Positions 5,552-35,632 of a stretch of DNA of 64,000 nucleotides are shown piece by piece. Position numbers and translations under genes: made by a program. The DNA lies in contig NZ_JAGYXY010000004.1 in assembly GCF_018362775.1 (NCBI RefSeq), forward strand, positions 357,630-421,629. Reading direction: 5' to 3'. The notes beneath the pieces were generated by a model that worked only from the letters and a program-made list of their open reading frames with translations, ran no database searches and had not been told where the DNA came from. Position 1 is the stretch's first letter. Each line of letters starts with the position of its first letter. This DNA comes from Alistipes montrealensis. GTDB lineage: Bacteria; Bacteroidota; Bacteroidia; Bacteroidales; Rikenellaceae.

Positions 5552-5561
5552 AGGTGTATGC

Positions 5562-7505: not shown

Positions 7506-7538
7506 AGTTCTGATTCTCGTTTAACATTAGTGAATGCG

Positions 7539-9464: not shown

Positions 9465-9482
9465 AGACGATCATAGTTTTAA

Positions 9483-11027: not shown

Positions 11028-11032
11028 ATGTT

Positions 11033-14575: not shown

Positions 14576-14587
14576 GTGTGCTGCGGT

Positions 14588-16217: not shown

Positions 16218-18053
16218 ATGATGAAAACCGTCGAATTGTTGGCGCCCGCCAAAGACTTTGCCTCGGCAGTGGCCGCTGTGGATTACGGCGCCGATGCCGT
16301 CTATATCGGCGGTGCGAAATTCGGTGCGCGGCAGGCCGCGGGAAACTCCGTAGAAGAGATCGCCCGGGTTGCGGAGTATGCCCACCGTTTCGGCGTGAGG
16401 GTTCATGCGACGCTCAACACGTTGTTGTGGGACGGTGAGTTGGAGGCTGCCGAACGACAGGCCCGCGAACTGATCGCGGCGGGGATCGATGCGCTGATCG
16501 TGCAGGACATGGCCCTGCGGCAGATGGATCTTCCGGTGGAACTGCATGCCTCGACGCAGGTCTGCAACCGGACTCCCGAGGGGGCGCGGTTTCTGGGGGA
16601 GGTCGGGTTCGCCCGGGTGATCCTGGAGCGCAACCTGTCGCTGGAGGAGATTCGGGCCATCTGCGACGCTACGGCGGCCGAAGTGGAGTGTTTTGTCCAT
16701 GGAGCGATCTGCGTGGGATACAGCGGCCGTTGTTTCCTGTCGCGGTCGATGTCCGAGCGCAGCGGCAACCGTGGTGCGTGCAGCCAGCCCTGTCGCCTGA
16801 CGTGGGACCTGACCGACGGAAAGGGCCGGACGTATATCGCCGGGAAGCACCTGTTGTCGGTACGCGATCTGAATCTTTCGGAATCCATTGGCGACCTGCT
16901 GGATGCGGGCGTTACCTCATTCAAGATTGAAGGTCGGTTGAAGGATCTCTCTTATGTCAAGAACGTTGTGGCTTATTACCGCCGGGCGGTCGACGAGGCA
17001 CTGGCCGTGCGTCCTGGATTCGTACGGTCGTCCGTCGGCGAGAGCGTTCCGGATTTCAGGCCCGACCCGTCGAAAAGTTTTACACGCGGGGAGTCGGCTT
17101 ATTTCCTCTCCGGAAAGCGGGCCGGAGTGGCTTCGTTCGACACTCCGAAGGCCGTCGGCGAACGGGTGGGCCGCGTGGCGAAGGTTTTCCCGAATGGTTT
17201 TATGCTTCTCGGGGAGGCGGAATTGGCGCCGGGCGACGGTATCTGCTTCATCACGCCGCGCGGCGTGACCGGAACCAACGTCAACGCCGTGGACGGCAAT
17301 CGTATCACGCCCAACCGCATGGAGGGGATCATCCCCGGTGCGGAGGTGTACCGGAATTTCGACCGCCGTTTTACGCTGGCGCTGGAACGCAGCCGTACGC
17401 GGCGGGTCATTCCGGCCAGGGCCGTGGCGGAGGCGACGGCGGAGGGGATTCGGATTACCTATGCAGATTGCGAGGGGGTGACGGCTTCGGCGGAACGGAG
17501 CGTGAAACTCGATCGGGCGAAAAATTCCGATGCCAATGCCGCTGCGCTGCGTACGCAGGCGATGAAGGGCGGCGATACGATTTTTTTGGTCCGGGAGGTC
17601 GAAGTGCGGGGTGCGGAGTGGTTCGTGCCTGCGTCACTGGCGGCGGAACTGCGACGCGAAGGACTTTCCGGGCTGGCCGAGGCCAGCCGGAAGCGGACGC
17701 CGGAACACCGTATCCTGTCCGGGGACCCCGCTGCGAAATACCCCTCGGAGCAGCTTGCGGCCGAAGAGAATGTGACCAACCGGCTGGCCGAAGCGTTTTA
17801 CAGGGATCACGGGGTCCGGACGATCGAGCGGGGGCTGGACCTTGCGCCGGCTACTGCCGGGCGGCGTGTGATGCACTCGTCCTACTGCATTCGCCGTGAG
17901 ATCGGCGAATGCCTCCGGGAGCGTCCGCGGCTTCGCGGCGACCTTTATCTCGAACGCGGCGCATACCGTTACCGGCTGGAATTCGACTGTGCGGCATGCG
18001 AAATGTCCCTGATCGACGAACCGCTCGGGAAGCGGGCTTTGGAAAGTTTATAA
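16218..18053 (+). CDS. U32 family protein, RlhA-like (23S rRNA hydroxylation)
   Basis: Started at the ATG at 16218 the product has 611 residues (MMKTVELLAPAKDF); a start at 16221 is equally possible, and an upstream in-frame extension of 35 codons is rejected because it spans the promoter. The N-terminal TIM-barrel-like region carries the U32 signature at about 157-175 (ECFVHGAICVGYSGRCFLS) with further Cys188 and Cys192, the four-cysteine set thought to bind a cluster. The length and C-terminal extension fit E. coli RlhA (hydroxycytidine 2501 of 23S rRNA) better than the shorter TrhP, though not decisively. The next gene, 21 bases away, is an rRNA-methyltransferase-like gene, which supports a ribosome-modification role. 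Confidence 0.85.
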   Translation: MMKTVELLAPAKDFASAVAAVDYGADAVYIGGAKFGARQAAGNSVEEIARVAEYAHRFGVRVHATLNTLLWDGELEAAERQARELIAAGIDALIVQDMALRQMDLPVELHASTQVCNRTPEGARFLGEVGFARVILERNLSLEEIRAICDATAAEVECFVHGAICVGYSGRCFLSRSMSERSGNRGACSQPCRLTWDLTDGKGRTYIAGKHLLSVRDLNLSESIGDLLDAGVTSFKIEGRLKDLSYVKNVVAYYRRAVDEALAVRPGFVRSSVGESVPDFRPDPSKSFTRGESAYFLSGKRAGVASFDTPKAVGERVGRVAKVFPNGFMLLGEAELAPGDGICFITPRGVTGTNVNAVDGNRITPNRMEGIIPGAEVYRNFDRRFTLALERSRTRRVIPARAVAEATAEGIRITYADCEGVTASAERSVKLDRAKNSDANAAALRTQAMKGGDTIFLVREVEVRGAEWFVPASLAAELRREGLSGLAEASRKRTPEHRILSGDPAAKYPSEQLAAEENVTNRLAEAFYRDHGVRTIERGLDLAPATAGRRVMHSSYCIRREIGECLRERPRLRGDLYLERGAYRYRLEFDCAACEMSLIDEPLGKRALESL

Positions 18054-18074
18054 CCGATTGCAATACGAAACTTT

Positions 18075-18962
18075 ATGCAGGAACAGCTTACACCCGATTT
18101 CGGGGATTATGAATTGCTCGACACGGGCGATTTCGAGAAACTGGAACGTTTCGGGCGCTATGTGACGCGCCGTCCCGAGCCGCAGGCCATCTGGCGGCGG
18201 ACACTCTCCGAAGAAGAGTGGCGGCAAACGGCCGACGCTTCGTTCCTGCGCGATGCGCGCAGCGACGAGCACGGGCAGTGGTGTCTCGGCGAGAAGATGC
18301 CCGACCGCTGGGTGGTGGAGTATGCCTATAAGGAGATGCGGCTGCGCATGCGGCTGGCCCTCACGTCGTTCAAACACGTGGGTATCTTCCCCGAGCAGGC
18401 GGCCAACTGGAATTTCATCTACGACAACTGCCGGGAGATGGTCGCTGCGGGAGGTTTTACGCCCAAGGTGCTGAACCTGTTCGCTTACACGGGCGGCGCG
18501 ACGCTCGCGGCGCGGGCTGCCGGGGCCGAGGTGACGCATGTCGATTCGGTAAAGCCGGTGGTGACCTGGTCGCGCGAGAACATGGAGCTGAGCGGCCTGG
18601 AGGGTGTGCGGTGGATTGTCGAGGATGCCTTGAAATTCGTTCAGCGCGAGGTGCGCCGCGGCAGCCGCTACCGTGGGATTATCCTCGATCCCCCGGCTTA
18701 CGGGCGCGGAGCCAACGGCGAGAAATGGATTCTGGAGGACAATATCGGCGAAATGCTCGATTGCTGTGCCCGGTTGCTGGAACCGCAGCGGGCATTCCTG
18801 GTGCTGAACCTCTATTCGATGGGATTGTCGTCGACGCTGGCCCGCACGGCCGTGAGGCAGGCATTCGGCGCGCCGCACGAGGAGCAGTGGGGCGAGTTGT
18901 GCTTCACCGACCGGGCCGGCAAAGAGTTGCCCCTGGGAACATATTACCGCTTTAAACGGTAA
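18075..18962 (+). CDS. Class I SAM-dependent methyltransferase, RlmI/RlmK-like
   Basis: The 295-residue product has a Rossmann methyltransferase core: motif I FAYTGGATLAA (136-146), an acidic residue after strand 2 (VTHVDSVKP) and motif IV DPPAYGRG (205-212), as in the RlmI/RlmK (YccW/YcbY) 23S rRNA methyltransferases. There is no PUA domain at the N-terminus, so it corresponds mainly to the catalytic part. It follows the U32 gene by 21 bases, and the two probably form a transcription unit for rRNA modification. The exact base modified cannot be assigned from sequence. Confidence 0.85.
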   Translation: MQEQLTPDFGDYELLDTGDFEKLERFGRYVTRRPEPQAIWRRTLSEEEWRQTADASFLRDARSDEHGQWCLGEKMPDRWVVEYAYKEMRLRMRLALTSFKHVGIFPEQAANWNFIYDNCREMVAAGGFTPKVLNLFAYTGGATLAARAAGAEVTHVDSVKPVVTWSRENMELSGLEGVRWIVEDALKFVQREVRRGSRYRGIILDPPAYGRGANGEKWILEDNIGEMLDCCARLLEPQRAFLVLNLYSMGLSSTLARTAVRQAFGAPHEEQWGELCFTDRAGKELPLGTYYRFKR

Positions 18963-21636: not shown

Positions 21637-22209
21637 TTAGAATACGTAATAAATCAGGATTCCGGCCGCGGCCGAGAGGACGATCAGCAGGATGGGATTG
21701 ACCTTGCGCCACGAGCCTATGAAAACCCCGCCGAAGAGCACCCAGCTCCACGCGTCGATGAAGTTCTGGTCGCCGGGAGCGGTGCTGTGGGGAAAGATCA
21801 GCAGCAGGGCTGCGGCGGCTATCATGCCGATCACCACGGGGCGCATGCCCCGCATGGCTCCTTCGACCAGCCGGTTTCCCTTGAGTTTCATGAAAAAACG
21901 TGCCACGAGAATCATCAGCGTCAGCGACGGCAGGCAGACGGCGAAGGTGGCGATCACGGAGCCGAGGATGCCGCACCAGGTGTGTCCGGTCTGGATACCG
22001 ACGCTGTAACCGACATAGGTGGCCGAGTTGATGGCGATAGGCCCGGGGGTGATCTGCGAAACGGCGACGATGTCGGCGAATTCGGCGGCAGTCATCCATT
22101 GGTGCTGTACGACTACTTCGTTCTGAATCAGCGACAGCATGGCATAGCCTCCGCCGAATCCGAAGAATCCGATTTTGAGATAGCTGATGAAAAGTTGCCA
22201 GAGAATCAT
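21637..22209 (-). CDS. chrA: Chromate transporter family protein, short-chain half
   Basis: The 190-residue product is a single ChrA domain: SYLKIGFFGFGGGYAML near the N-terminus, then PGPIAINSATYVGY and several membrane helices ending in GILIYYVF. Short-chain ChrA proteins work as pairs made by two genes; the partner is at 22687-23253, separated by one small periplasmic-protein gene. Chromate efflux is the family's named activity, but in many anaerobes the physiological anion is unknown. The 3' end has a decayed second copy at 20714-20841. Confidence 0.9.
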   Translation of the reverse strand: MILWQLFISYLKIGFFGFGGGYAMLSLIQNEVVVQHQWMTAAEFADIVAVSQITPGPIAINSATYVGYSVGIQTGHTWCGILGSVIATFAVCLPSLTLMILVARFFMKLKGNRLVEGAMRGMRPVVIGMIAAAALLLIFPHSTAPGDQNFIDAWSWVLFGGVFIGSWRKVNPILLIVLSAAAGILIYYVF

Positions 22210-22227
22210 ATGCCTGCGGTATGCCGG

Positions 22228-22674
22228 TTATTGGATTGTGATGTCGGTGATCTTCAGCGCGCCGTTCTCCACCGTCGCTTTCACGGGGATGACGACGCAC
22301 TTGTTGTTATACCGGTCGAGGTAGGCTACGGCATACCAGGCTCCGTCGACGTGCGTGGCGGTGATCGTCGCCACGGCATCCGTGTCGAAATCCTGCGCCC
22401 GGATAATCGGGTCGTAGAACTGTTCGGTGCGGACTCGGGTCACTTTCCGCAGGGTCTCCGGGGTCAGGTATTCGCGAAGTTTCGGCTCTGCGGCGGAATC
22501 CGGACCTTTGGCTATGAACGTGCAGTAGTCGGTGTAGAACGCTTGCAGCAACGTCTGCGTCTGCTCCGTTCCGGCTTTCGGGGCGGTTGCCGGTTCGCCG
22601 GCGACGGCCCGGCTGTTTGCCGCTGCGGCGAACAGCATGCAGGAAAGCGTTATGGTGAATAGGCTGATTTTCAT
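22228..22674 (-). CDS. Secreted DUF3828-like protein between the two ChrA halves
   Basis: The 148-residue product has a cleavable signal peptide (MKISLFTITLSCMLFAAAANSRA) and a small alpha/beta domain (TLLQAFYTDYCTFIAKG, LREYLTPETLRKV, VVIPVKATVENGALKITDI) that resembles the DUF3828 group of periplasmic proteins. It lies 18 bases before one ChrA gene and 12 bases after the other. Insertion between two genes whose products must pair suggests a role tied to the transporter, but no function is known. Confidence 0.7.
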   Translation of the reverse strand: MKISLFTITLSCMLFAAAANSRAVAGEPATAPKAGTEQTQTLLQAFYTDYCTFIAKGPDSAAEPKLREYLTPETLRKVTRVRTEQFYDPIIRAQDFDTDAVATITATHVDGAWYAVAYLDRYNNKCVVIPVKATVENGALKITDITIQ

Positions 22675-22686
22675 GGTTCTATGCTT

Positions 22687-23253
22687 TTAATCTTTCTTTT
22701 TCCGTTCGGGACGGTGCTTTCCTGCGACCGCCAGTTCCCAGGCGATGCCTATGGCCGCGGCTGTGACGAGTACGTAGATCGGCGACCAGTCGAGCCACCA
22801 GATGGCGAGGGCTGCGGCGGCGATGACGATGAACATGATCCAGTGCATGCCGCGGGCCAGTGAGATCACCGGACCGATGATCAGCGCCACGACAGCCGGG
22901 CGCATGCCCTTGAAGGCCGCGTCGACGACCGGATTGTGACGGATGTCGGTGAAGAAGATGGCGATCACGAGGATGATGACGAACGACGGCAGAACCGAAC
23001 CCAGCAGGGCGGCGACGGCCCCGCCGAATCCCCGGACCTTGTAACCCACGAATACCGACGTGTTGACGGCGATGGGGCCGGGAACCGACTGCGCAAGGGT
23101 CAGCAGGTCCAGAAATTCCTTCTGCTCGATCCATTTGCGTTTGGTGATCAGCTCCTGCTCGATCAGCGGCAGCATGGCGTAGCCGCCCCCGAAGGTGAAC
23201 ATTCCGATTTTCAGGAACGAAAAGAAGATGGTGCTCAGCCGTTGCATCGTCAT
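22687..23253 (-). CDS. chrA: Chromate transporter family protein, short-chain half
   Basis: Started at the ATG at 23251-23253, the product has 188 residues. This start overlaps the stop of the upstream ferredoxin/HyfI-like gene by four bases (ATGA), a sign of translational coupling, and any longer reading would run through that gene. The ChrA hallmarks are FFSFLKIGMFTFGGGYAMLPLIEQE and SVPGPIAVNTSVFVGYKV followed by five or six membrane helices. It is the likely partner of the ChrA half at 21637-22209. The direct coupling to a hydrogenase-related complex is unusual. Confidence 0.9.
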   Translation of the reverse strand: MTMQRLSTIFFSFLKIGMFTFGGGYAMLPLIEQELITKRKWIEQKEFLDLLTLAQSVPGPIAVNTSVFVGYKVRGFGGAVAALLGSVLPSFVIILVIAIFFTDIRHNPVVDAAFKGMRPAVVALIIGPVISLARGMHWIMFIVIAAAALAIWWLDWSPIYVLVTAAAIGIAWELAVAGKHRPERKKKD

Positions 23254-24032
23254 TCGCGTTTTTTTCGGCCCAGCAGGTTCAGCATGCCGTCGATGTAGGT
23301 CATCGGGTGGGTCGGTGCGCCGGGCAGCCAGAGGTCGGGGGTGTGGTCGTCGAGGAACGTGCGGTCGACGGCGCGGCTGTTGGCGAACAGGCCGCCCGAG
23401 CAGGCCTCCGTGCCGCAGGCGACCAGTATCTTGGGCTCTGCGACGGCGTCGTAGCAGATCGCCAGCGCTTCGGCCATATTGGCCGTGACGGGGCCGGAGA
23501 TCACCACACCGTCGGCATGGCGCGGCGAGGCGGTGAAGCCGATGCCGAAACGCCCGAGGTCGAAATTGACATTGCCCGTGGCGCCCAGTTCCATTTCGAC
23601 CGAGGCATCGCCCCCGGCCGAAACTTCGCGCAACTGGAGCGTGCGGGAGAAGCAGCGGCGGATTTCGGGGCGCACCTTTTCGGCGTCGAAGGCTATGCGC
23701 GTATCGCCCGGACGGACGACGAGGCCTTCGCGCGTGGGCGAGCCGATGCGGTAGTCGTTGGTGAAGCGGACGTTGCGGGGCGCGATGCGGGCGCATTCGC
23801 CGCAGAAGAGGCAGCGTCCCAGGTCGAGCGCCAGGGGTGCGGCCGTAAGGGCTCCCGTGGGGCATATGGCGGCGGCGCGCTCCGTGTCGCCGGTGTCTTC
23901 GGTGGCGGTCAGCACGGGACGGCCCCGGAACTCCGGAGTGAGTTCCACGGCGTCGAGATCGGGAATCGCCTGCCGTCCGTGGCTGTGCAGCACCTTTATT
24001 TTCGGAAAGATCATATCCGCAAAATTAAGCAT
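23250..24032 (-). CDS. Fused ferredoxin/HyfI-like subunit of a hydrogenase-related complex, cluster ligands lost
   Basis: The 260-residue product joins a HyfH/HycF-type ferredoxin region (about 1-105) to a HyfI/HycG/NuoB-type small subunit (about 128-255). In the ferredoxin part only Cys57 (CPTGALT) and Cys74, Cys77, Cys80 (CLFCGEC) remain: exactly the four ligands of one 4Fe-4S cluster, while the other set is absent. In the small-subunit part the fold motif is clear (FGIGFTASPRHADGVVISGPVT), yet positions of the N2 cysteines carry Ala139, Asp142 and Val145, the third site reads ACGTEACSGG and PGCPP has become PGAPT (Ala239). It follows the HyfG-like gene by 6 bases. It cannot bind a normal N2 cluster. 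Confidence 0.82.
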   Translation of the reverse strand: MLNFADMIFPKIKVLHSHGRQAIPDLDAVELTPEFRGRPVLTATEDTGDTERAAAICPTGALTAAPLALDLGRCLFCGECARIAPRNVRFTNDYRIGSPTREGLVVRPGDTRIAFDAEKVRPEIRRCFSRTLQLREVSAGGDASVEMELGATGNVNFDLGRFGIGFTASPRHADGVVISGPVTANMAEALAICYDAVAEPKILVACGTEACSGGLFANSRAVDRTFLDDHTPDLWLPGAPTHPMTYIDGMLNLLGRKKRE

Positions 24033-24038
24033 TAAAAA

Positions 24039-25562
24039 TCATAAATCGTGCCCGCAGTAGGAGAGGTTGAAACTCTTGTTGCAGATCGGGAAGTCGGAGA
24101 TGCCTTCGCTGCGTACGGCGAGGGCCAGCGCCAGCCAGTTGTGCAGGCTCGGGTCCTTGATGCGGCAGGCGGCGATGCGGCCTTCGGCGTCGGTCAGCAG
24201 GACGTGGCAGCTCTCGCCGCGCCACCCTTCGACAAGCCCGAATGCGAGCGACGACGGGGCCAGCGGCGCCGTGTAGTCGGGGGCGGAATTTTCCGCCGCG
24301 GTGCGTTCCTGTTCGCCGGTTTCCAGCAGGCGGTCGATGTATTCGGCCGATTGCAGCACCTCGCGGCTGCGCACCATCAGCCGGGCCATCACGTCGCCCT
24401 GCGTGCGGACGATGCTCTCGTGGCGCAGCGGTCCGGCAAAGACGCCCCACGGATGCGAGGTGCGGATGTCGCGGGCCAGACCGCTCGCGCGGGCCGCCTG
24501 TCCCACGCCGCCGATGCGCTGCATCTCGTCGCGCGGAACGATGCCGCACTGCTCGAAGCGTGCCAGCAGCGTAGGCGACGACTTGATGTCGCGGCGCACC
24601 TGGTCGTAGCGGCGGGCGATTTCGCGTACGTTGCGGCGGATCATCGCCGACTTTTCGGCCGTCAGCGGGTGGTCGGTTCCCTGGGGGCGGATCAGCCCTT
24701 TGCCGAAGCGGTTGCCGCACCATGCCTGGGTGGTGTTGATGGTCAGGGTGCGCAGAGCTTCCGAGGCCACTTGCCCGAGTTGATAACCCACGTCCATGCA
24801 CAGCGCGCCCGTGTCGGCGATCTGCATGGCCATGCGTTCGAGTTCGAGGGCTATGGCGCGTTCGCGTTCGAGGCGTGCCGGGTGTTGGAAGCCGGAGAGT
24901 TTCCCGACGGCCTGGGCGAAGGCCGTGGCGTGCGCCACGGCGCTGTCCCCGGCGACGGCTTCGGCGAGGCATGCCTGCCGCAGACGATTGTCCGTCGTTT
25001 CGAAGGCCTGCTCGACGCCCCGGTGCTGGTAGCCCAGCGCGATTTCGAGGTGCAGGACCTGCTCGCCGTTGCAGATGAAGCGGAACGCACCCGGTTCGAT
25101 GATGCCTGCGTGGATCGGTCCGACGTTGACTTCATGCAGCGAACGGCCCTCCATCGTGTAGAAGGGATAATTTTCGATCGAACTGCGGCGGTCGTAGCGG
25201 TCGGCGGGGAACCGCAGGGGCTTGGGCCACGGCATGCCTTCGAAGCGGATGCCGTAGCGCTCGGCGATGTCGCGCTCGAAGGGGTGCATCTGCGGATGCA
25301 GGGCCGTGAGCGAGGGGAGTTCGGCTTCGTCGTAATAATCCGTAGCGTGCGAGGTGATCAGCACCCGGTTTTCGGCGTCGTCGAGCAGGAGGCAGAAAAA
25401 ACGCATCCTGTCGCCTGCGGGAAGGGCGAAATAGTGGGCCACATGGTAGCGCGCATCGGCGAGCCGTGCCGAAAGGTCCTCGTAGAATGCGGCGTAGGAG
25501 ACTTCGGGGATGTCGCTCAACGATACGGCCCGGGCAGTATTGTCGGTTACGTAGTAATTCAT
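24039..25562 (-). CDS. hyfG: HyfG/HycE-like large subunit (NuoCD type) without Ni-Fe ligands
   Basis: Started at the ATG at 25560-25562, which overlaps the upstream stop as ATGA, the product has 507 residues. An N-terminal NuoC-like domain (about 1-125, HPFERDIAERYGI) precedes a NuoD/hydrogenase-large-subunit domain (SLHEVNVGPIHAGIIEPGAFRF, LALGYQHRGVE-like segment, RIGGVGQAARASGLARD). The CxxC of true group-4 hydrogenases aligns with Ala204 and Ser207 (EAVAGDSAVAH), and the C-terminal DPCxxC aligns with NLSYCG, where only an offset Cys503 remains. Nickel-iron hydrogenase activity is therefore unlikely. The subunit belongs with energy-converting-hydrogenase-related (Ehr) complexes. Confidence 0.85.
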   Translation of the reverse strand: MNYYVTDNTARAVSLSDIPEVSYAAFYEDLSARLADARYHVAHYFALPAGDRMRFFCLLLDDAENRVLITSHATDYYDEAELPSLTALHPQMHPFERDIAERYGIRFEGMPWPKPLRFPADRYDRRSSIENYPFYTMEGRSLHEVNVGPIHAGIIEPGAFRFICNGEQVLHLEIALGYQHRGVEQAFETTDNRLRQACLAEAVAGDSAVAHATAFAQAVGKLSGFQHPARLERERAIALELERMAMQIADTGALCMDVGYQLGQVASEALRTLTINTTQAWCGNRFGKGLIRPQGTDHPLTAEKSAMIRRNVREIARRYDQVRRDIKSSPTLLARFEQCGIVPRDEMQRIGGVGQAARASGLARDIRTSHPWGVFAGPLRHESIVRTQGDVMARLMVRSREVLQSAEYIDRLLETGEQERTAAENSAPDYTAPLAPSSLAFGLVEGWRGESCHVLLTDAEGRIAACRIKDPSLHNWLALALAVRSEGISDFPICNKSFNLSYCGHDL

Positions 25563-26959
25563 AGCGAAGCGATTTGGTCGATCAGCGTCAGGAGAAATTG
25601 CGGTTGCCAGAGGCCCAGCACGATGGCGGCGGCGAGCAGCGACAGTGCCGACCACGACAGCGTGCGGGCGGTTTTCGAGGGATGCAGTTCGCCCTGGCTG
25701 GGCTGGTAGCAGAGGCGCAGCAGGCGCGAGCAGAAGGAATAGATGACGATGCACAGGAGCAGGAGCATTCCGGCGACGAGCCACCAGCGCCCTTCGGCGA
25801 TGGTTTGCTTGAGAATCATCAACTCGGAGAGGAAGAACGGCGACGGAGGGAAGGCCACCATGAGGACCATGCCCGTGAGCAGCCCGACAGCACCTACGCG
25901 GTTGATGTGGATGTAGTCGCCGATGCGGTTGATGCGGTAGTTGTCATAGACCTGCCGCACGACGGCCATCTGGAGGAACAGGCTGCTCTTGACGAGCGTG
26001 TGGCAGACGACGTGGAACACCGCGGCCCAGACCCCGATGCCGCCGATGCCCAGTCCGATGGCCGCGATCCCCATGTTCTCGACCGTGGAGTAGGCCAGGA
26101 AGCGCTTGTAGTTGTTGGTTCGGCGCAGGAACAGCGCGCCGATCATGAGCGACAGCACGCCGACGAGCAGCAGTACGGAGCGCACCCACGGGAAAACCTC
26201 CGTGGCGGCGAGCAGTTTGTAGATGCGGAAGACGGCCAGGAACCCGGCGTTGACCAGTCCCGTAGAGATCAATGCCGCGGCGGGCGCCGGGGCGGCGAAG
26301 GCAGCGTCGATACCCACGGTATAGAGCGGGAACAGTTCGCATTTGCAACTGTAACCGCAGAGGATCAGCAAAAAGGCGGTCTTCAGGTAGAGGGCGTTGC
26401 TGCCCGGGGCCGCGGCGGCTACGGCCTCGTAGCCGAGCGACTCGCATTTGGTCGCAGCGGCCAGCAGCAGGATGCCCAGGTAGGCCATGGCGATACCTGT
26501 CGAGCAGACGAAGACGTATTTCCAGGCCGCTTCGAGCGCCTGGGCCGTGCGGCGGTGGTAGATGATGCCCGCCGAACAGAGCGTGGTGGCTTCGATGAAA
26601 ATCCACGTCACGGCGAGGTTCGAGGCGAAATAGGCCCCCGCGATGGCCGTGGTGAGGAGCATCAGGAGTCCCGAGTAGGTACGGACCTGGCTGAAACTGC
26701 AATCGTGGAGGCTGGCCTTCGAGTGGAAGAAGGCGAAACCGGAGACGATGCAGAGCAGTGCGTAGAAGAGCGTGCCCGGAGCGTCGAAGGTGAACCAGGC
26801 GGCCGAAGTCTGCCCGTAGAGTCCTCCGGCGGCGATCCAGACGGCAAAAGCAGCCTGCACGGCGTAGAAGACGATGCCCGCGAGGCGCAGCACGCTTTCG
26901 CGGCGGGCCGTGAAGGCCGCTGCGGCGACGAGGATGCTGAGGATGAGGTAACAGATCAT
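25559..26959 (-). CDS. hyfF: HyfF-like proton-conducting membrane subunit (NuoL/M/N family)
   Basis: The 466-residue polytopic protein starts with MICYLILSILVAAAAFTARRE and shows the antiporter-like core of the NuoL/M/N and Mrp families: the SALM-region equivalent around FAAPAPAAALISTGLVNAG, RRTNNYKRFLAYSTVENMG and the conserved H/K pair in VVCHTLVKSSLFLQMAVV. It is somewhat shorter than E. coli HyfF. It lies between the HyfE-like gene (4 bases upstream) and the HyfG-like gene (four-base overlap). In the complex it should form one of the ion-translocating modules. Confidence 0.9.
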   Translation of the reverse strand: MICYLILSILVAAAAFTARRESVLRLAGIVFYAVQAAFAVWIAAGGLYGQTSAAWFTFDAPGTLFYALLCIVSGFAFFHSKASLHDCSFSQVRTYSGLLMLLTTAIAGAYFASNLAVTWIFIEATTLCSAGIIYHRRTAQALEAAWKYVFVCSTGIAMAYLGILLLAAATKCESLGYEAVAAAAPGSNALYLKTAFLLILCGYSCKCELFPLYTVGIDAAFAAPAPAAALISTGLVNAGFLAVFRIYKLLAATEVFPWVRSVLLLVGVLSLMIGALFLRRTNNYKRFLAYSTVENMGIAAIGLGIGGIGVWAAVFHVVCHTLVKSSLFLQMAVVRQVYDNYRINRIGDYIHINRVGAVGLLTGMVLMVAFPPSPFFLSELMILKQTIAEGRWWLVAGMLLLLCIVIYSFCSRLLRLCYQPSQGELHPSKTARTLSWSALSLLAAAIVLGLWQPQFLLTLIDQIASL

Positions 26960-26963
26960 GGCG

Positions 26964-27593
26964 TCAGTCTTTTACGTTGGTGAGCGAATCGGCGTCGTCG
27001 GCGTGGAGCTTGTCGTCGATCTTGGTGAAGAAGATGCCCAGCATCAGTACCGAGATGAGGATGTCGAGCAGGATGGCGAAGTTGATCAGCAGCGGCATCT
27101 CGACGCCGATGGCCGTCGAAAAGAGGAACACGCCGTTTTCGATCACGAGGAAGCCGATCATGTGCGAGAAGATGCGGCGGCGCATGACGATCAGGATCAG
27201 GCCGCTCAGCAGCGAATAGAGGGCTACGCCGAAGAACACCAGGTCGATGGTCGTGTCGGCGATGTAGTAGGTGACCGAGGCGCTCACGGCCAGCGCCATG
27301 AGCGACAGCAGGAGCGATCCCGACTGCGTCGAGCCGGAGCGGCTCACGCGGTTGATCTTCGTGCGGCGAATGACGGCGAAGAGCATTCCCGGGACGAGGA
27401 TGCCTTTGAAAAGCAGGGTTTCGAGGCCGATGAAGGCCAGCTCGGCGGGGTTGATCGCGTGCAGGCGCACCAGTGCGATGGCGAACAGCAGCCACCCCTG
27501 AAGGCCGATCAGCGACGCGAAGTTGCGGAACCGTTCGGTGATCGCCAGGTAGACGAGCGTCACGACATAGAGGATAATCAGCGGCAGAATCAT
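26964..27593 (-). CDS. hyfE: HyfE-like membrane subunit
   Basis: The 209-residue protein has about six transmembrane helices and the HyfE layout: a helix rich start (LPLIILYVVTLVYLA), the conserved LLFKGILVPGMLFAVIRRTKI and a NuoK-like second half (FSHMIGFLVIENGVFLFS with conserved Glu, then MPLLINFAILLDILISVLMLGIF). The start overlaps the stop of the HyfC-like gene by four bases. HyfE and NuoK relatives contribute buried carboxylates to proton translocation. It ends in a charged cytoplasmic tail (DDKLHADDADSLTNVKD). Confidence 0.88.
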   Translation of the reverse strand: MILPLIILYVVTLVYLAITERFRNFASLIGLQGWLLFAIALVRLHAINPAELAFIGLETLLFKGILVPGMLFAVIRRTKINRVSRSGSTQSGSLLLSLMALAVSASVTYYIADTTIDLVFFGVALYSLLSGLILIVMRRRIFSHMIGFLVIENGVFLFSTAIGVEMPLLINFAILLDILISVLMLGIFFTKIDDKLHADDADSLTNVKD

Positions 27594-28504
27594 TGGATAC
27601 CGATGTTAAGTTGCAGCAGGTAGCCCGTGAAGAAGACCAGGGCGGCCAATGCGGCGACGGTGAGAATGAATGTGGTGTTGCGGGCGAGTTTGTTGCGGGC
27701 CTGGGTCGATTCGACGATGCCCACCGAAAGTCCTGTAATCAGCACTGCGAGCGGGGCCGCCGCCCACCAGCGGGGACAGCAGGTCGCGGCGACGGCGTTG
27801 GCTGCGATCACCGACAGTGCGGCGGTTTTGAGCCATCCGGCCATCTTGATGAACGCCAGGTCGACGCCGCAGTAGTCGAGACACATCACCTCGTGGATCA
27901 TCGTCAGTTCGAGGTGCGTGCGGGGATCGTCGACCGGTACGCGCCCGGCTTCGGTGAAGACGATCTTCGTCAGCACGTAGGCTGCGAGCAGCAGCACGAC
28001 GACGAGCTGCACGCCGTTCACGGCGTCGCCGGAGAAGATCGCGGCGAAGGAGGTGTAACCCGACAACAGGGCCAGCGTGCCGAAGACCAGCATCAGGGCC
28101 GGTTCGATGAGTGCGCCGTACAACGCTTCGCGGCTGGCGCCCATGCCTTCGAACGAACTTCCGGTGTCCATGGCCGCCAGGATGAGGGCCACGCGGCCCA
28201 GGGCCAGCAGGTAGGCGAAGGCGACGAGGTCGCCGTCGAACGAGAGCACCGGCGGCAGGTCGCCGACGGGGATCAGCAGTGCGGCGACGAGCGCCGTGCC
28301 GAGCATGACCGACGGAGCCGTGCGGAACAGCGCCGTAGTGGTAGGGGAGTAGACGGCGCCTTTGCGCAGCAGCAGGCGTACGTCGTAGAGGTGCTGGGCG
28401 AAACGGATGCCCTTGCGGCCCGCCAGGAGCGCCCGGGTGCGGTTGATCAGACCCGGAATCGCGAGGGCTGCCAGCAGGAGCAGAAGTGTATTGAGTACTG
28501 CCAT
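27590..28504 (-). CDS. hyfC: HyfC/NuoH-like membrane subunit
   Basis: The 304-residue protein matches the NuoH/HyfC/HycD family in length and motifs: GRKG and the charged loop at the start, MDTGSSFEGMGASREALYG in the middle, and EAGRVPVDDPRTHLELTMIHEVM, the loop that faces the quinone or cluster-bearing arm in complex I. These charged residues are kept, which suggests that the coupling path between the hydrophilic arm and the antiporter modules is still selected. It lies 3 bases after the HyfB-like stop and overlaps the HyfE-like start. Confidence 0.92.
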   Translation of the reverse strand: MAVLNTLLLLLAALAIPGLINRTRALLAGRKGIRFAQHLYDVRLLLRKGAVYSPTTTALFRTAPSVMLGTALVAALLIPVGDLPPVLSFDGDLVAFAYLLALGRVALILAAMDTGSSFEGMGASREALYGALIEPALMLVFGTLALLSGYTSFAAIFSGDAVNGVQLVVVLLLAAYVLTKIVFTEAGRVPVDDPRTHLELTMIHEVMCLDYCGVDLAFIKMAGWLKTAALSVIAANAVAATCCPRWWAAAPLAVLITGLSVGIVESTQARNKLARNTTFILTVAALAALVFFTGYLLQLNIGIQ

Positions 28505-28507
28505 CTT

Positions 28508-30496
28508 TTATATCATGTTAAATACCGACAACAGGAACACCAGCCCCAGGAAGGCCAGTGCGAAGAGGATGTAATGGTTGATCTTGCCCGTGCGCAGGCG
28601 CATCACGCGCTGGTTGATCATACGCAGCAGTTCGACCCACCAGGCGGAGAAGAGTTTGCCGATGCGGTCGCGGTGGCCGATGTCGAACGTGTGGGCCGCA
28701 GGGAAGATTTCGCCTTTGCCCACGGGGGAGCCTTCGCCGCTGTTCTGGGTCAGCGACGTGGCGATGGACTGCAACCCTTCGGAGAAGGATTCGCCCGTGT
28801 ACTGCATCCTCACGTTGGGCGCGGTGAAGCCGCAGCCCCAGGTGGGGCCTTTGGCGACGGTGCGTGTGCGCAGGGTGCGGCGGCGGAGCCAAAGCAGCAG
28901 GCATACCACGGCAATCAGCAGCCATGCCGTGCGTCCTACGGCGGAGAGCGTGGGCGAGAGCAGCCAGTCGGCGGCGTCGGCAGGGGTGCGGAGGAAGAAG
29001 CCTGCGGCGCGGGTCACGGCCGAGACGGCCGCCCGGGGGAAAAGCCCGACGAAGAGGATGCCTGCGAGCGGCAGGGCCATGGCGGCGATGCGGAAATTGT
29101 CGGCTTCGGTCGATTCGGCGACCTCGTGGGTGCGGGGCGAGCCGAGGAAGACCGTGCCGTAGAGTTTGGTGAAGGCCATGACGACGAGCCCGCCGATCAG
29201 GGCCAGTGCGGCCAGTCCGGCGGCGGAGGCCAGCACGTTACTGCCCGAAGCGATGCCGTCGAGCATCCCGAGGTAGATGAGCAGTTCCGAGATGAAGCCG
29301 TTGAGGGGCGGCAGGGCGCAGATGGCCACGGTCCCCGTGAGGAAAAGGATTGCCGTGAGGGGCATATGCTTCGCCACTCCTCCCAGCGCATCGAGCGACG
29401 TGGTGCGGGTTTGCGAGAGAAGGTTGCCCGCGCCGAAGAAGAGCAGGGTCTTGAACAGCGAGTGGTTGAGCGTGTGCAGCAGGGCGCCCGCGATGCCGCA
29501 CAGCGCGACGAGCTGGTTGCCCGATGATTTACCCAGCGCGGCGATGCCGAGGCCGATGAGGATGATGCCGACGTTCTCGATCGACGAGTAGGCCAGCAGG
29601 CGCTTTACGTCGTTTTGCAGGACGGCGAGGATTACGCCCCAGACGCCCGTAACGATGCCTGCCGTGAGCAGGATCACCCCTGCGGTGTGCAGGGCGGGCT
29701 GTTCGCCCAGCGCAGCCGTGACGCGCAGCAGGCCGTAGATGCCCGTCTTGATCATCACGCCCGACATCAGGGCCGAAACGTGGGACGGGGCTGCGGGGTG
29801 TGCTTCCGGGAGCCAGACGTGCATCGGGAAAAGGCCCGCCTTCATGCCGAAGCCGAGGAGGAAGACGATGAGCAGCGGCAGGGCCGGTTCGGTGCGGAAA
29901 TATTCGCCCAGCGCGCTGAACGAGGCGGCGCCGCAGACGGCGTCGAGCCGCACGAAACCCACGATGAGCAGCACGAAGCCGATGTGCATCATGATCAGGT
30001 AGGAGAGCGCCGCACGCCGGACCTCGCGACGCTGGGCGTCGAAAAGGATCAGCAGGAACGACGCCACGGTCATCAGTTCCCAGAAAAAGAGGAACGAGAA
30101 GCCTCCGTCGGAGAGGACCACGCCCAGCATGGCGTAAAACATCACCACCAGCGCCGTGTAGTGCAGCGAGATGTGGGCCGGGGATTTGCTTCGGAGGTAG
30201 TGCTCGAGGTAGCCCCGCGAGTAGAGCACTGCGGAGACCGCACCGACCGAAATGATTAAAACGAACAGCGCCGAGAGGCTGTCCATCGAGCCGGTGTCGC
30301 CGCCGAAAATCGTGCCGGGGATCGACCACAGCAGCTCGTGGGCGGTTCCGGCGAGCACCCCGACGGCATGCGCCGAGCACCACAGGGCTCCGACGGCCGT
30401 GAGGGCCAGTGCGGTCCAGACTTTGGACCGCAGCGGCGCGGCAAAAACGGCTGCCGCCACCACCCCCAGGGCGAGAAGTGAATAGAGAAAAAACAT
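28508..30496 (-). CDS. hyfB: HyfB/NuoL-like antiporter-type membrane subunit
   Basis: Started at the ATG at 30494-30496 the product has 662 residues; a TTG three codons earlier is less likely. It has about fifteen membrane helices and the NuoL/HyfB core motifs: LGFGMKAGLFPMHVWLPEAHPAAPSHVSALMSGVMIKTGIYG, KRLLAYSSIENVGII and LLHTLNHSLFKTLLFFGAGNLL (listed here as separate short stretches of one conserved core). A charged soluble loop and a final helix close the protein. It is the first gene of the six-gene complex, 20 bases after rsmE, and should form the distal ion-pumping module. Confidence 0.92.
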   Translation of the reverse strand: MFFLYSLLALGVVAAAVFAAPLRSKVWTALALTAVGALWCSAHAVGVLAGTAHELLWSIPGTIFGGDTGSMDSLSALFVLIISVGAVSAVLYSRGYLEHYLRSKSPAHISLHYTALVVMFYAMLGVVLSDGGFSFLFFWELMTVASFLLILFDAQRREVRRAALSYLIMMHIGFVLLIVGFVRLDAVCGAASFSALGEYFRTEPALPLLIVFLLGFGMKAGLFPMHVWLPEAHPAAPSHVSALMSGVMIKTGIYGLLRVTAALGEQPALHTAGVILLTAGIVTGVWGVILAVLQNDVKRLLAYSSIENVGIILIGLGIAALGKSSGNQLVALCGIAGALLHTLNHSLFKTLLFFGAGNLLSQTRTTSLDALGGVAKHMPLTAILFLTGTVAICALPPLNGFISELLIYLGMLDGIASGSNVLASAAGLAALALIGGLVVMAFTKLYGTVFLGSPRTHEVAESTEADNFRIAAMALPLAGILFVGLFPRAAVSAVTRAAGFFLRTPADAADWLLSPTLSAVGRTAWLLIAVVCLLLWLRRRTLRTRTVAKGPTWGCGFTAPNVRMQYTGESFSEGLQSIATSLTQNSGEGSPVGKGEIFPAAHTFDIGHRDRIGKLFSAWWVELLRMINQRVMRLRTGKINHYILFALAFLGLVFLLSVFNMI

Positions 30497-31302: not shown

Positions 31303-31326
31303 CATAAAATAACACGATCGATGAAA
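31295..31326 (-). promoter_or_regulatory. Promoter of the rsmE-hyf-chrA run
   Basis: On the minus strand TAACTTTG (complement of 31295-31302) is an exact -7 match and TTTC (complement of 31323-31326), 20 bases upstream, matches three of four -33 bases. It points at rsmE, whose ATG is at 31228-31230. Confidence 0.6.
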
Positions 31327-33474
31327 CGTATCACCGCTTTATTAACACTTTTTCTGGCCATGACATTCGTATCCTGCAAGTCCGGGAAAACCGTAGGTGA
31401 AAATCCATTTTTCTCTGCCTGGGAAACTCCCTACGGCGTGCCGCCGTTCGATAAGATCGAACCCGGGCACTTCCTGCCCGCGCTCGAACGCGGCATGTCG
31501 CTGCACGAGGCCGAGATCGATGCCATCACGTCGAACAACGACGCCCCGACGTTCGAGAACGTCATCCTCGCCCATGACAATTCGGGGAAAATGCTTTCGC
31601 AGGTAGAGTTGATTTTCGGGATGCTCTGCGCCGCGGAGAATACCCCGGCCATGCAGGCGCTTGAGGAGCAGGTGATGCCCCTTATGGCGGCGCACAGCGA
31701 TAAGATCCGCCTCAACGAAAAACTTTTCGAACGCATCCGGGCGGTTTACGACCAGCGCGCCGCGTTGGGTCTCGACGCCGAACAGAGCCGCCTGCTGGAG
31801 AAGACCTACCGCGATTTCGTACGTGCGGGAGCGCTGCTCGACGCGGAGCAGAAGGCGCGCCTGAAGGCGATCAACGAGGAGTTGTCGCTCACGTCGGTGA
31901 AATTCGGACAGAACATCCTGGCCGAGAACAACAACTATGCGCTGGAACTTACGGCGGCCGACCTCGACGGGGTTCCGGTTTCGGCCCGCGATCAGGCCCG
32001 CGACAAGGCCGAGGCGATGGGGCGGAAGGGTAAATACGTCTTTACGCTGCACAAACCCAGTCTGATCCCGTTCCTGACCTATGCTTCGAAGCGCGAACTG
32101 CGCGAGGAGATTTACAAAGCCTATATCAACCGCTGCAACAACGGCGACCAGTACGACAACAAGCAACTGATCAACGATTTCATCCGCCTGCGTACGGAGA
32201 AGGCCCACCTGCTGGGTTATCCGTCGTACGCCGCCTACGTCGTGGCCGACCAGATGGCCGGAACGACCGACGCCGTGTACGGCCTGCTGGAGGAGATCTG
32301 GACCCCGGCGCTCGAAAGCGCCAAGGGCGAGTTGTCCGAGATGGAGGCGTTGTTCAAGAAGGACTTCCCCGACGGCGAGTTCGCTTCGTGGGACTGGTGG
32401 TATTACGCCGAGAAGGTCCGCAAACAGAAATATGCGCTTGACGAGGAGATGCTGCGGCCCTATTTCTCGCTGGAGAACGTGCAGGGAGGCATTTTCTTCC
32501 TGGCCAACCGCCTTTACGGCATCACGTTCCGGCCGATCGTCGTGCCGCTGTACCACCCCGACGCCACGGCTTACGAGGTGCTCGATGTCGACCAGTCACA
32601 CCTGGGCGTGCTCTATTTCGACTACTTCCCGCGCGACGGCAAGAGCCAGGGCGCCTGGTGCGGCAACTATGTCGAGCAGACTTACGAGGACGGCAAGCGT
32701 GTGGCGCCCGTGGTGTCGATCGTCTGCAACTTCACGCGCCCGGTGGGCGATACTCCCGCGCTGCTGACGCTCGACGAGACCGAGACGCTGTTCCACGAGT
32801 TCGGCCATGCGCTCCACTTCCTGTTCCACGACGTGAAGTACCGCGGCCTCACGGAGGTCGAAGGCGACTTCGTGGAACTGCCTTCGCAGTTGATGGAGAA
32901 CTGGGCGTTCGACTCCGAAGTGCTGAAGCAGTATGCCGTTCATTACCGCTCGAACGAGGTGATCCCGAAATACCTGGTCGAAAAACTGCACCGCAGCGAA
33001 CTCTTCAACCAAGGGTTTATGACGACCGAACTGATCGCTTCGTCGCTTTCGGACATGGATATCCATTCGATGACCGAGTATGCGCCTTTCGATCCGATGG
33101 AGTTCGAGCGCAAGTCCCTGACCGAAAAACGCGGACTGATCCCGCAGATCGAGCCGCGCTACCATTATCCCTATTTTTCGCACATCTTCGACGGAGGCTA
33201 CTCGGCAGGCTACTATTTTTATACGTGGGCCGAGGTGCTCGACAAGGATACGTTCGAGGCTTTCCGCGAGAGCGGCGACCTGTTCAACAAGAAGATCGCC
33301 GACGATTTCCGCCGCAAGGTGCTCGCCCGCGGCGGTTCGGAGGACGGTATGACGATGTACCGCGATTTCCGCGGCAAGGACCCCGACAAGAAAGCGATGC
33401 TTCGCAGCCGCGGCCTGCTGGACGAACCCGAACCGTCCGATAAAGACGCCGCGCCCGCTGCCCCCGAAATCTGA
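31321..33474 (+). CDS. M3 family metallopeptidase lipoprotein (Dcp-like), copy 1
   Basis: The 717-residue product has a lipobox signal peptide (FVSCK) and the peptidyl-dipeptidase Dcp/oligopeptidase layout: long helical N-terminal lid, then the zinc site HEFGHALH with His492, Glu493 and His496, and the downstream glutamate in GDFVELPSQLMENW. The substrate-side motif GGYSAGYYFYTWAEVLD is also kept. As an envelope lipoprotein it would trim short peptides in the periplasm or at the surface. A second M3 gene follows 40 bases later. A disordered Pro/Ala/Asp-rich tail ends the protein. Confidence 0.95.
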   Translation: MKRITALLTLFLAMTFVSCKSGKTVGENPFFSAWETPYGVPPFDKIEPGHFLPALERGMSLHEAEIDAITSNNDAPTFENVILAHDNSGKMLSQVELIFGMLCAAENTPAMQALEEQVMPLMAAHSDKIRLNEKLFERIRAVYDQRAALGLDAEQSRLLEKTYRDFVRAGALLDAEQKARLKAINEELSLTSVKFGQNILAENNNYALELTAADLDGVPVSARDQARDKAEAMGRKGKYVFTLHKPSLIPFLTYASKRELREEIYKAYINRCNNGDQYDNKQLINDFIRLRTEKAHLLGYPSYAAYVVADQMAGTTDAVYGLLEEIWTPALESAKGELSEMEALFKKDFPDGEFASWDWWYYAEKVRKQKYALDEEMLRPYFSLENVQGGIFFLANRLYGITFRPIVVPLYHPDATAYEVLDVDQSHLGVLYFDYFPRDGKSQGAWCGNYVEQTYEDGKRVAPVVSIVCNFTRPVGDTPALLTLDETETLFHEFGHALHFLFHDVKYRGLTEVEGDFVELPSQLMENWAFDSEVLKQYAVHYRSNEVIPKYLVEKLHRSELFNQGFMTTELIASSLSDMDIHSMTEYAPFDPMEFERKSLTEKRGLIPQIEPRYHYPYFSHIFDGGYSAGYYFYTWAEVLDKDTFEAFRESGDLFNKKIADDFRRKVLARGGSEDGMTMYRDFRGKDPDKKAMLRSRGLLDEPEPSDKDAAPAAPEI

Positions 33475-33514
33475 CCTGTAACCCATCGAGAAGAAACCGC
33501 ATAACTGATATAAA

Positions 33515-35632
33515 ATGAAAAAAGCACTGGTAATTATGGCATTTTCCGCTATGGCGGCAGGCTGCGCCGACAATTCGATCCCCAAAGCGCAACTGCCCGA
33601 ACTTGATCTGTCGAATCCCCTCCTGGCGGCGTGGAATACGCCCCACCAGACTCCGCCGTTCTCCGAGATCGAACTTTCGGACTATGAACCGGCGTTCGAC
33701 GCTGCGATCGCCTGCTCGCGCGCCGAGGTGGACGCGATCGTCAACAACCCCCAAAAGCCGACCTTCGGCAATACGATCGTGGCGCTGGAGCGCCAGGGGG
33801 AGTTGCTGAACCGCATTTCGGGCATTTTCTTCAACCTGCTCGAAGCCGACACGTCGGACGAAATGCAGGAGATCGCCCTGCGTGTGCAGCCCAAACTGAC
33901 CGAGTTCTCGAACGACCTTTCGCTCAATCCCGAGCTGTTCGCCCGGGTAAAATATGTTTACGAGCATCCGGGACGCCTCAAAAAAGAGGATAAAAAGCTG
34001 CTCGAAGACACCTACCAGGGTTTCGCGCGCAGCGGTGCGGCCCTGTCCGATGCCGATAAAGAGCTTTACCGCAAGTACTCCTCCGAACTCTCGGCGCTGA
34101 CGCTCCAGTTCGGGCAGAACGCACTGGCCGGAACCAATGCCTTCACGCTCAACATCACCGATCCGAAGGTGGTGGCCGAACTGCCTGCTTTCGTGAAGGA
34201 GGGTATGGCCGCCGATGCCAAGGCCCGCGGCGAGAAAGGCTGGACCGTGACGCTGCAACAGCCCAGTTACCTGCCGTTCATGACCTACTCGTCGAACCGG
34301 GACCTGAAGGAGAAACTCTGGCGCGCCCGCAGTACGATCGCGCTGGGCGGCGAGTTCGACAACTGCGAAAACGTGAAAAAGATCGCCAACACGCGTCTGA
34401 AAATCGCCAACCTGCTGGGTTACAAATGCTATGCGGATTATGTGCTCGAACGGCGCATGGCCGAGAACACCCCGACGGTCAATGCTTTCCTCGAAGAGTT
34501 GCTGACGGCGACCAAGTCCTATGCCGATGCCGACTACCGCATGGTGAGCGACTACGCCGCATCGCTCGGCTTCAAAGGACAACTGATGCCCTGGGACTGG
34601 TCTTACTACACCGAAAAATACAAGGATGAGAAATATGCCCTGAACACCGAGTTGGTGAAACCTTACCTGAAACTCGAAAACGTGAAGAAGGGCGTCTTCA
34701 TGCTGGCCAACAAGCTCTACGGGCTGAATTTCACGCCCAACGACAAGATCGGGGTTTACCATCCCGACGTGACGGCTTACGACGTGACGGACGAGAGCGG
34801 CCGTTTCATGGCGGTCCTCTACCTCGATTTCTTCCCCCGCGAATCGAAGCGTTCGGGGGCGTGGATGACTGAGTTCCGCGGCGCGAAGATCGAAAACGGC
34901 GAGGAGACCCGTCCGCTGGTGTCGCTGGTGATGAATTTCACCAAGCCGACCGAAACGGCCCCCTCGCTGCTGACGTTCGATGAACTGGAAACCTTCCTGC
35001 ACGAGTTCGGCCACGCCCTGCACGGCATGCTGGGCGAGGGCAAATACGAATCGCAGACCGGAACGAGCGTATACCGCGACTTCGTGGAGCTGCCTTCGCA
35101 GTTGATGGAGAACTGGGCTACCGAGAAGGAGTTTCTCGACCTGTGGGCCGTGCATTACGAGACCGGGGAGCCGATTCCCGCCGATCTGGTCGACCGCATC
35201 GTCGCTGCGCAGAATTACCTGGCTGCTTACAGCAATGTCCGCCAGTTGTCGTTCGGCCTGACCGACATGGCATGGCATACGCTCACGGAGCCTTTCGAAG
35301 GCGACGTGGTGGAGTTCGAAGCTGCTTCGATGACCCCGACGCAGGTACTGCCCGTCGTTCCCGGAACGGCGATGGCCCCCTCGTTCGGACATATCTTCTC
35401 GGGCGGTTATGCGGCCGGGTATTACGGCTACAAGTGGGCCGAGGTACTCGAAGCCGACGCCTTCTCGCTCTTCAAGGAGAAAGGCATCTTCAACCGCGAA
35501 GTGGCGTCGTCGTTCCGCGAGAATGTCCTCTCGAAGGGCGGCACGGAGCATCCGATGGAGCTCTACGTGCGTTTCCGCGGCCACAAGCCCGAAACCAAAG
35601 CCCTCATCGAGAAAATGGGACTCGGAAAATAA
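33515..35632 (+). CDS. M3 family metallopeptidase lipoprotein (Dcp-like), copy 2
   Basis: The 705-residue product is a paralogue of the preceding gene, alignable over its full length (WNTPHQTPPFSEIELSDYEPAFDAAI against WETPYGVPPFDKIEPGHFLPALERGM as short segments of the same region). The lipobox is AAGC. The zinc site HEFGHALHGML begins near residue 496 and FVELPSQLMENW provides the third ligand. The sequences have diverged well beyond a recent duplication, so the two enzymes may differ in peptide preference. A perfect palindromic terminator follows at 35651-35680. Confidence 0.95.
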   Translation: MKKALVIMAFSAMAAGCADNSIPKAQLPELDLSNPLLAAWNTPHQTPPFSEIELSDYEPAFDAAIACSRAEVDAIVNNPQKPTFGNTIVALERQGELLNRISGIFFNLLEADTSDEMQEIALRVQPKLTEFSNDLSLNPELFARVKYVYEHPGRLKKEDKKLLEDTYQGFARSGAALSDADKELYRKYSSELSALTLQFGQNALAGTNAFTLNITDPKVVAELPAFVKEGMAADAKARGEKGWTVTLQQPSYLPFMTYSSNRDLKEKLWRARSTIALGGEFDNCENVKKIANTRLKIANLLGYKCYADYVLERRMAENTPTVNAFLEELLTATKSYADADYRMVSDYAASLGFKGQLMPWDWSYYTEKYKDEKYALNTELVKPYLKLENVKKGVFMLANKLYGLNFTPNDKIGVYHPDVTAYDVTDESGRFMAVLYLDFFPRESKRSGAWMTEFRGAKIENGEETRPLVSLVMNFTKPTETAPSLLTFDELETFLHEFGHALHGMLGEGKYESQTGTSVYRDFVELPSQLMENWATEKEFLDLWAVHYETGEPIPADLVDRIVAAQNYLAAYSNVRQLSFGLTDMAWHTLTEPFEGDVVEFEAASMTPTQVLPVVPGTAMAPSFGHIFSGGYAAGYYGYKWAEVLEADAFSLFKEKGIFNREVASSFRENVLSKGGTEHPMELYVRFRGHKPETKALIEKMGLGK

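Follow-up and report, generated by a model that had tools for sequence, protein, structure and literature searches.

An energy-converting-hydrogenase-related complex of Alistipes montrealensis without the ligands of the Ni-Fe site and the N2 cluster

Here, we analyzed a stretch of 64,000 nucleotides from Alistipes montrealensis (contig NZ_JAGYXY010000004.1, positions 357,630 to 421,629; hereafter the window) and identified, at 23250-30496 on its minus strand, a six-gene operon that is best read, from its sequence, as an energy-converting-hydrogenase-related (Ehr) complex in a variant form lacking the proximal iron-sulfur cluster N2. In the passages of two earlier studies that define them, Ehr complexes lack the residues that hold the Ni-Fe site (PMC6349859, PMC10284858); members have been published there from Melainabacteria and Nitrospira, and their function is called unknown in the relevant part of PMC10284858. 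The absence of Ni-Fe ligands from Ehr is therefore known already, and the notable part here is the loss of N2, for which we found no report in the open-licence literature, which does not cover the founding Ehr paper. Our tentative reading, to which we give a probability of about 45%, is that the N2-less branch may be an ion-moving complex whose drive no longer comes from electrons delivered to the former active site.

Subunits of the complex and the lost cofactor ligands

The six genes overlap or nearly abut in the order hyfB, hyfC, hyfE, hyfF, hyfG and a fused ferredoxin/hyfI gene, and both gene coordinates and family searches bear out a preliminary description of the window that had reported this tight packing. 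The proteins matched the expected families in Pfam and NCBIfam, apart from HyfE, which had no Pfam match and reached the NCBIfam hydrogenase 4 membrane subunit model only below its cut-off. The start of hyfB is an ATG at 30496, the listed open reading frame (ORF) opening upstream at a TTG (30505). The best named match of hyfG came from an uncultured Alistipes (81% identity). Two features place the operon in Ehr, a group-4-like large subunit without Ni-Fe ligands and, encoded alongside it, membrane subunits of the antiporter-like and NuoH-like kinds. One usual Ehr feature, the N2-type proximal cluster, is absent, and it forms no part of the definitions in the passages cited above. The genes and key positions are as follows (TM, transmembrane helix).

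28508..30496, minus strand: hyfB, antiporter-like membrane subunit; TM5 Glu, TM7 and TM8 Lys, TM12 Glu and coupling-loop Cys kept
27590..28504, minus strand: hyfC, NuoH-like subunit with a charged EAGRVPVDDPRTHLELTMIHE loop
26964..27593, minus strand: hyfE, small membrane subunit of the hydrogenase-4 type
25559..26959, minus strand: hyfF, second antiporter-like membrane subunit
24039..25562, minus strand: hyfG, large subunit of the fused 30/49-kDa type, 507 residues, without Ni-Fe ligands
25095..25097, minus strand: HyfG E156, an invariant Glu of the beta1-beta2 loop that aligns to HycE E193
24942..24953, minus strand: former first Ni-Fe motif of HyfG (A204, G205, D206, S207)
24051..24062, minus strand: former second Ni-Fe motif of HyfG, S501 to G504 in NKSFNLSYCGHDL
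23250..24032, minus strand: ferredoxin domain fused to the hyfI small subunit, 260 residues
23793..23864, minus strand: remaining ferredoxin cluster ligands C57, C74, C77 and C80 of HyfI
23598..23609, minus strand: former N2 ligand positions 1 and 2 (D142, V145)
23406..23408, minus strand: former N2 ligand position 3 (E209)
23316..23318, minus strand: former N2 ligand position 4 (A239)

In a profile alignment, the N2 cysteines of MbhJ (6cfw_J) and HycG (7z0s_G) fell on D142, V145, E209 and A239 of HyfI. All four ligand positions have changed and no intact N2 motif is left, just as the preliminary description had claimed. The single-chain model of HyfI (mean predicted local distance difference test score, pLDDT, 93.1) matched HycG with a Z score of 16.0 over residues 118-260, a span in which the ferredoxin domain is barely covered. 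This domain retains exactly one set of four cysteines, C57, C74, C77 and C80, invariant in 68 rows, which by the usual ferredoxin pattern we take to bind a single cluster, namely that closer to the small subunit.

The Ni-Fe cysteines of HycE (7z0s_E) aligned, in a profile alignment with solved chains, to A204, S207, S501 and G504 of HyfG. This agrees with the earlier proposal that the first CxxC corresponds to Ala204/Ser207 and the C-terminal DPCxxC to NLSYCG, and no alignment placed four cysteines at the Ni-Fe positions. Among 99 large subunits (aligned rows with a small-subunit call, 62 N2-less and 37 N2-bearing; near-copies are included in these motif counts and in the coupling-residue counts below), the A204 position is Cys in six and the other three positions never are. 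D206, D490, N495, K496, S501, Y502, G504 and D506 are invariant, E201 and G205 have one exception each, and the pocket motifs are identical in N2-bearing and N2-less Ehr. The single-chain model of HyfG (mean pLDDT 90.2, with low confidence in the beta1-beta2 loop, residues 149-157) matched HycE with a template modeling score of 0.86 by query length.

HypD is required for maturation of the Ni-Fe site. It was found in none of 37 genomes of the genus, the host included, and, elsewhere in the order, in 7 of 24 genomes, by a search whose control was positive in 4 of 14 known genomes. Absent Ni-Fe ligands and absent HypD both uphold the earlier view that the complex is not a hydrogenase, and a group 4 [NiFe] hydrogenase was rejected on these grounds. 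The same description had set ordinary quinone chemistry aside. The positions that we take to be the quinone Tyr and His of complex I are not kept in the alignment of HyfG with 2fug_4 and the N2 ligands are missing, which at the sequence level argues for that claim. The host genome (3.48 Mb) carries complex I NuoCD at another locus, together with two PF03116 proteins (Nqr/Rnf family).

Distribution and history of the N2-less form

To describe the small subunits, 175 aligned rows were reduced to 151 distinct ones by dropping six complex I rows and gene repeats; these were ranked by likeness to queries from the window and its relatives, and their counts describe this sample and are not a census. 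N2 cysteines occupy all four positions in 50 of the 151 Ehr small subunits and do not in the other 101, of which 98 (all but L112, L118 and L134) constitute the group of the window. This group comes from Bacteroidota genomes, bar one labeled Planctomycetota (L075) that was placed among Bacteroidota in the tree. Acidic residues stand at N2 positions 1 and 3 in 96 of the 98 rows, the exceptions being L070 and L082. Kinship code or likeness placed 27 rows in the genus, and in these the four positions read Asp-Val/Ile-Glu-Ala/Thr in 22 (one of them cut short), Asp-Val-Asp-Ala in four and Asp-Cys-Asp-Ala in one. Outside the genus Asp-Cys-Asp-Asn was found in 56 of 71 rows of the group, and most N2-less relatives there retain the Cys of position 2. 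Retention of two or three ligand cysteines is a rare state; L118 has two.

By a rough count, fewer than three upstream cysteines of the outer ferredoxin cluster are left in 97 of the 98 N2-less rows versus 18 of 50 N2-bearing ones, the outer motif being kept in the remaining 32. The four cysteines of the other ferredoxin cluster are present in 148 of all 151 rows. The misses are L113, L134 and L180; the last is a fragment at a contig end and was set aside as a second case of ferredoxin-domain loss. In comparison with other Ehr, the complex of the window is alike in the A-G-D region, in the DFPxxNKSFNLSYCGxDL motif without Ni-Fe cysteines, in the antiporter-like subunits and in the fused ferredoxin/small subunit found in most loci read. 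It differs in that members from other phyla mostly keep the four N2 cysteines, whereas the branch of the window has neither N2 nor the outer ferredoxin motif.

The phylogenetic trees of large subunits leave out partial or repeated loci and near-copies, including most of the genus, and cover only part of the 98 N2-less rows. In the 90-row tree, 43 N2-less rows of the group and 6 unscored rows formed one branch (Shimodaira-Hasegawa-like approximate likelihood ratio support, SH-aLRT, 100), whose neighbors were N2-bearing rows from Spirochaetes, Ignavibacteria, one Bacteroidetes metagenome-assembled genome (MAG) and Melainabacteria. With more genomes, in the 87-row tree, the N2-bearing L166, L221 and L222 fell within the group or at its base. 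A single N2-less clade was not rejected (39 versus 37 rows, likelihood 6.87 higher, approximately unbiased test p-AU 0.62) when the 39 N2-less rows were held together among the rows of that tree minus four deep ones. The complex of the window groups with signature-sharing loci from Melainabacteria and other phyla, the tree rows including no published Ehr sequence. Since L082 has lost N2 and retains both ferredoxin motifs, N2 loss may precede loss of the outer ferredoxin cluster; other rows lack the outer motif yet have N2, and the two losses are therefore separable.

The N2 ligands were lost again outside this group, in Verrucomicrobia (L112 and L118) and in a deep Ehr type (L134). In L112 (10599-11330) and L118 (10535-11236), the N2 ligands changed separately, Trp standing at position 4, and both ferredoxin motifs are present. 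L134 (G048:C386:1-8370) is a single MAG contig on a long branch that carries a deep-type Ehr operon, with Asp-Cys-Asp-Asp at the N2 positions and thus acids again at positions 1 and 3; N2 is retained in its relatives, namely L158, L159 and the second L101 operon. The L134 small subunit has 175 residues and no ferredoxin domain. No ORF was found upstream of its hyfI, but the contig ends 612 bases upstream and a ferredoxin gene could lie beyond. L134 may possibly encode a complex without any iron-sulfur cluster. L101 is a Verrucomicrobia contig in which two Ehr operons of different types stand in tandem (3222-18904).

Retained coupling residues, proposed mechanism and alternatives

In alignments, nearly all rows, whether N2-less or N2-bearing, keep the key Lys and Glu residues of HyfB and HyfF as well as eight charged positions in the HyfC loop, in line with the earlier remark that the membrane subunits preserve antiporter and NuoH-loop residues. 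Some other charged residues vary, such as one HyfE Glu present in 51 of 55 N2-less versus 6 of 34 N2-bearing rows. We then used the proton-path map of HycE and HycC as given in the corresponding part of the structural paper on formate hydrogenlyase (FHL) (PMC9474812). The equivalents of HycE E193 (E156 in HyfG), H188 (H151), E437 (E401) and R478 (R448) are kept in 62/62 N2-less and 37/37 N2-bearing rows. That of R395 is Arg in 58/62 and 35/37, and that of H284 is His or Gln in 61/62 and 37/37 (Q247 in the window). The equivalent of HycC Cys537 in HyfB is Cys in 52/52 and 34/34 rows, respectively, and the position of the HycE Ni ligand Cys531 is Ser in every row. It appears that the electron-handling parts have gone and most of the proton-handling parts have been retained.

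Compared with E. coli FHL and hydrogenase-4 (HycE, HycG; 7z0s), the complex of the window shares the fold, the beta1-beta2 loop Glu, the canopy Arg and the coupling Cys. It differs in lacking the Ni-Fe site and the proximal cluster, in the change of the canopy Asp to Asn, and in having no recurring partner gene nearby: across 33 N2-less loci from outside the genus, no non-core neighbor family occurred in more than two, in a clustering for which flanks were under 1 kb on one or both sides in several loci and which missed divergent genes. Respiratory complex I has homologous modules and the same retained charged residues in the membrane arm; the complex of the window differs from it in lacking N2, the quinone Tyr/His positions and an NADH module in the operon.

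The retained residues point to ion translocation, and the lost ones to a working cycle that would be independent of redox. In the mechanism that we propose, the complex-I-type coupling machine would be complete, with HyfB, HyfC, HyfE and HyfF in the membrane and HyfG and HyfI on the cytoplasmic side, and only electron delivery into the former catalytic pocket would have been given up. H+ would be moved, perhaps against Na+, via the two antiporter-like subunits, and what drives or gates the cycle would be protonation, or the binding of a ligand, in the former pocket instead of redox chemistry there. The lone ferredoxin cluster would be structural or serve as a sensor of redox state, and the acids at N2 positions 1 and 3 would provide a buried protonatable or negative site in place of N2. 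In FHL, the relay steps described in the part cited are each below 14 Å (PMC9474812). Without N2, an electron on the remaining cluster should face a longer step to the pocket.

A more specific version, which we consider rather unlikely, is that the carboxylates at N2 positions 1 and 3 stand in for the charge that a reduced cluster would carry, such that their protonation and release would drive the same conformational pump cycle and a redox switch would have become a protonation switch. Mrp-type antiporters exchange ions without redox chemistry via homologous membrane subunits and have no hydrophilic arm. The way of working proposed here is the same redox-free exchange, whereas the complex of the window differs in having a conserved hydrophilic arm (hyfG, hyfI) and a NuoH-like subunit. 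In the less likely, more specific version, redox chemistry might even be absent from the pocket of all Ehr complexes, since N2-bearing members share its motifs.

The preliminary description had inferred an ion-translocating complex under selection whose input is neither hydrogen nor normal quinone chemistry. Selection and the exclusion of hydrogen have held up, and the exclusion of quinone chemistry has done so as far as residues can tell. The input reaction itself was an assumption; with the wire lost, the absence of any such reaction is also allowed.

Several observations weigh against a redox-free machine. The near-invariance of the ferredoxin cysteines is the main counter-evidence and suggests a continuing role for electrons or for the cluster. 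Given that N2-less and N2-bearing Ehr do not differ in their pocket motifs, the pocket of HyfG may still do the canonical Ehr job, chemistry included. The canopy Asp (HycE D529 in the same map) is Asn in 53 of 62 N2-less and 36 of 37 N2-bearing rows, so that not every residue of the proton path is preserved. Some unrecognized cofactor might also conceivably occupy the old place of N2.

Alternatively, the complex might still be redox-driven, the remaining cluster passing ferredoxin electrons to a nearby acceptor or to a cofactor in the N2 pocket and in this way driving or regulating the pump. We regard this alternative as doubtful but far from negligible. It would account for the conserved ferredoxin cysteines and pocket motifs, as well as for the conservation of the residues that replace the N2 cysteines, the commonest set of which, Asp-Cys-Asp-Asn, could bind metal. 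However, the pattern prevailing in the genus would make a poor metal site, the cysteines of the outer ferredoxin cluster are also gone in nearly the whole group, and no recurring partner gene was seen within the flanks examined.

That the complex has itself stopped moving ions and acts as a scaffold or regulator, for example by holding membrane subunits for another system, seems quite improbable. The lost electron sites and the lack of a nameable reaction would suit such a role, yet intramembrane charged residues, needless for a scaffold, are kept in nearly all rows.

We also considered that an Ehr or hydrogenase operon might be decaying here, to which many lost cofactor ligands might point. 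The ratios of nonsynonymous to synonymous substitution rates (dN/dS, Nei-Gojobori) were 0.13-0.25 in all six subunits versus the close relatives L034, L035 and L037, and 0.14-0.23 for the flanking rsmE and M3 peptidase genes in the same comparisons; versus L039 and L041 they were 0.11-0.25, with saturated dS. Together with the conservation across relatives, these values indicate purifying selection on all six genes, as had been supposed. The genes stood together in 19 of 20 loci fetched (hyfB of L051 being cut by a contig end), and the sole exception was L036, whose hyfI lies at another site in the genome. At high similarity, hyfG was found in 21 of 37 genomes of the genus, the host included; the 16 without a close copy, many of them incomplete, would be consistent with decay. 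So would a stop codon that interrupts the hyfI frame of L040 some 24 residues short of its usual end (about 8133-8135, minus strand; genus MAG G036, 71% complete), the one broken frame among the relatives checked; the usual residues continue in frame past it, and it could be real or an assembly error.

Small-subunit relatives at E <1e-80 were present in 66 of 295 Bacteroidales genomes (67 matches). The best 30 of the 67 are all N2-less, a biased sample since the query alignment was mostly N2-less; N2-bearing members (L192, L194) also occur in Bacteroidales. Eight of the 67 matches were flagged with one stop, which lies at the gene end because the open frames have 249-264 residues. With dN/dS this low, the genes kept together, relatives this widespread and the large-subunit motifs invariant, decay is very unlikely. 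Least credible of all is a divergent-ligand version of a [NiFe] hydrogenase or of an ordinary quinone reductase, for which the overall fold and subunit set could be cited and which is opposed by the missing Ni-Fe cysteines, N2 and quinone Tyr/His positions and by the lack of HypD in all 37 genomes of the genus.

It has long been asked how complex I couples electron transfer to proton pumping. A conserved natural member of the superfamily that has the pump and the coupling loops and lacks the last electron carrier is a ready-made test: if ions are indeed moved by it, redox chemistry at the old pocket is not needed to run the coupling machine. The N2-less form is conserved in many Bacteroidota and may be an example of such machines operating in the absence of their usual redox drive. 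It also offers a new handle on Ehr complexes, whose function was called unknown in the part of PMC10284858 cited above.

Genes around the operon

Downstream of the operon and on the same strand are two chromate-transporter half genes (21637-23253, minus strand; PF02417 in each), and between them a small protein weakly resembling DUF3828 (22228-22674). The chromate-transporter family was found in 11 loci, every one assigned to the genus, adjacent to the operon in some and several kilobases away in L038-L040. Because of this limited distribution and distance, these genes, tried as a part of the complex, were not counted in it.

In G007, G510 (L060) and G511 (L081), hyfI is intact but apart from the rest of the operon, through either rearrangement or assembly. 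A second hyfB-like gene lies upstream in some Ehr operons, both N2-less and N2-bearing (L052, L164, L169). Upstream of the operon in the window, two adjoining M3-family peptidase genes (31321-35632, plus strand; PF01432) run divergently to rsmE and hyf, and the first of them is present in all 16 genus loci fetched.

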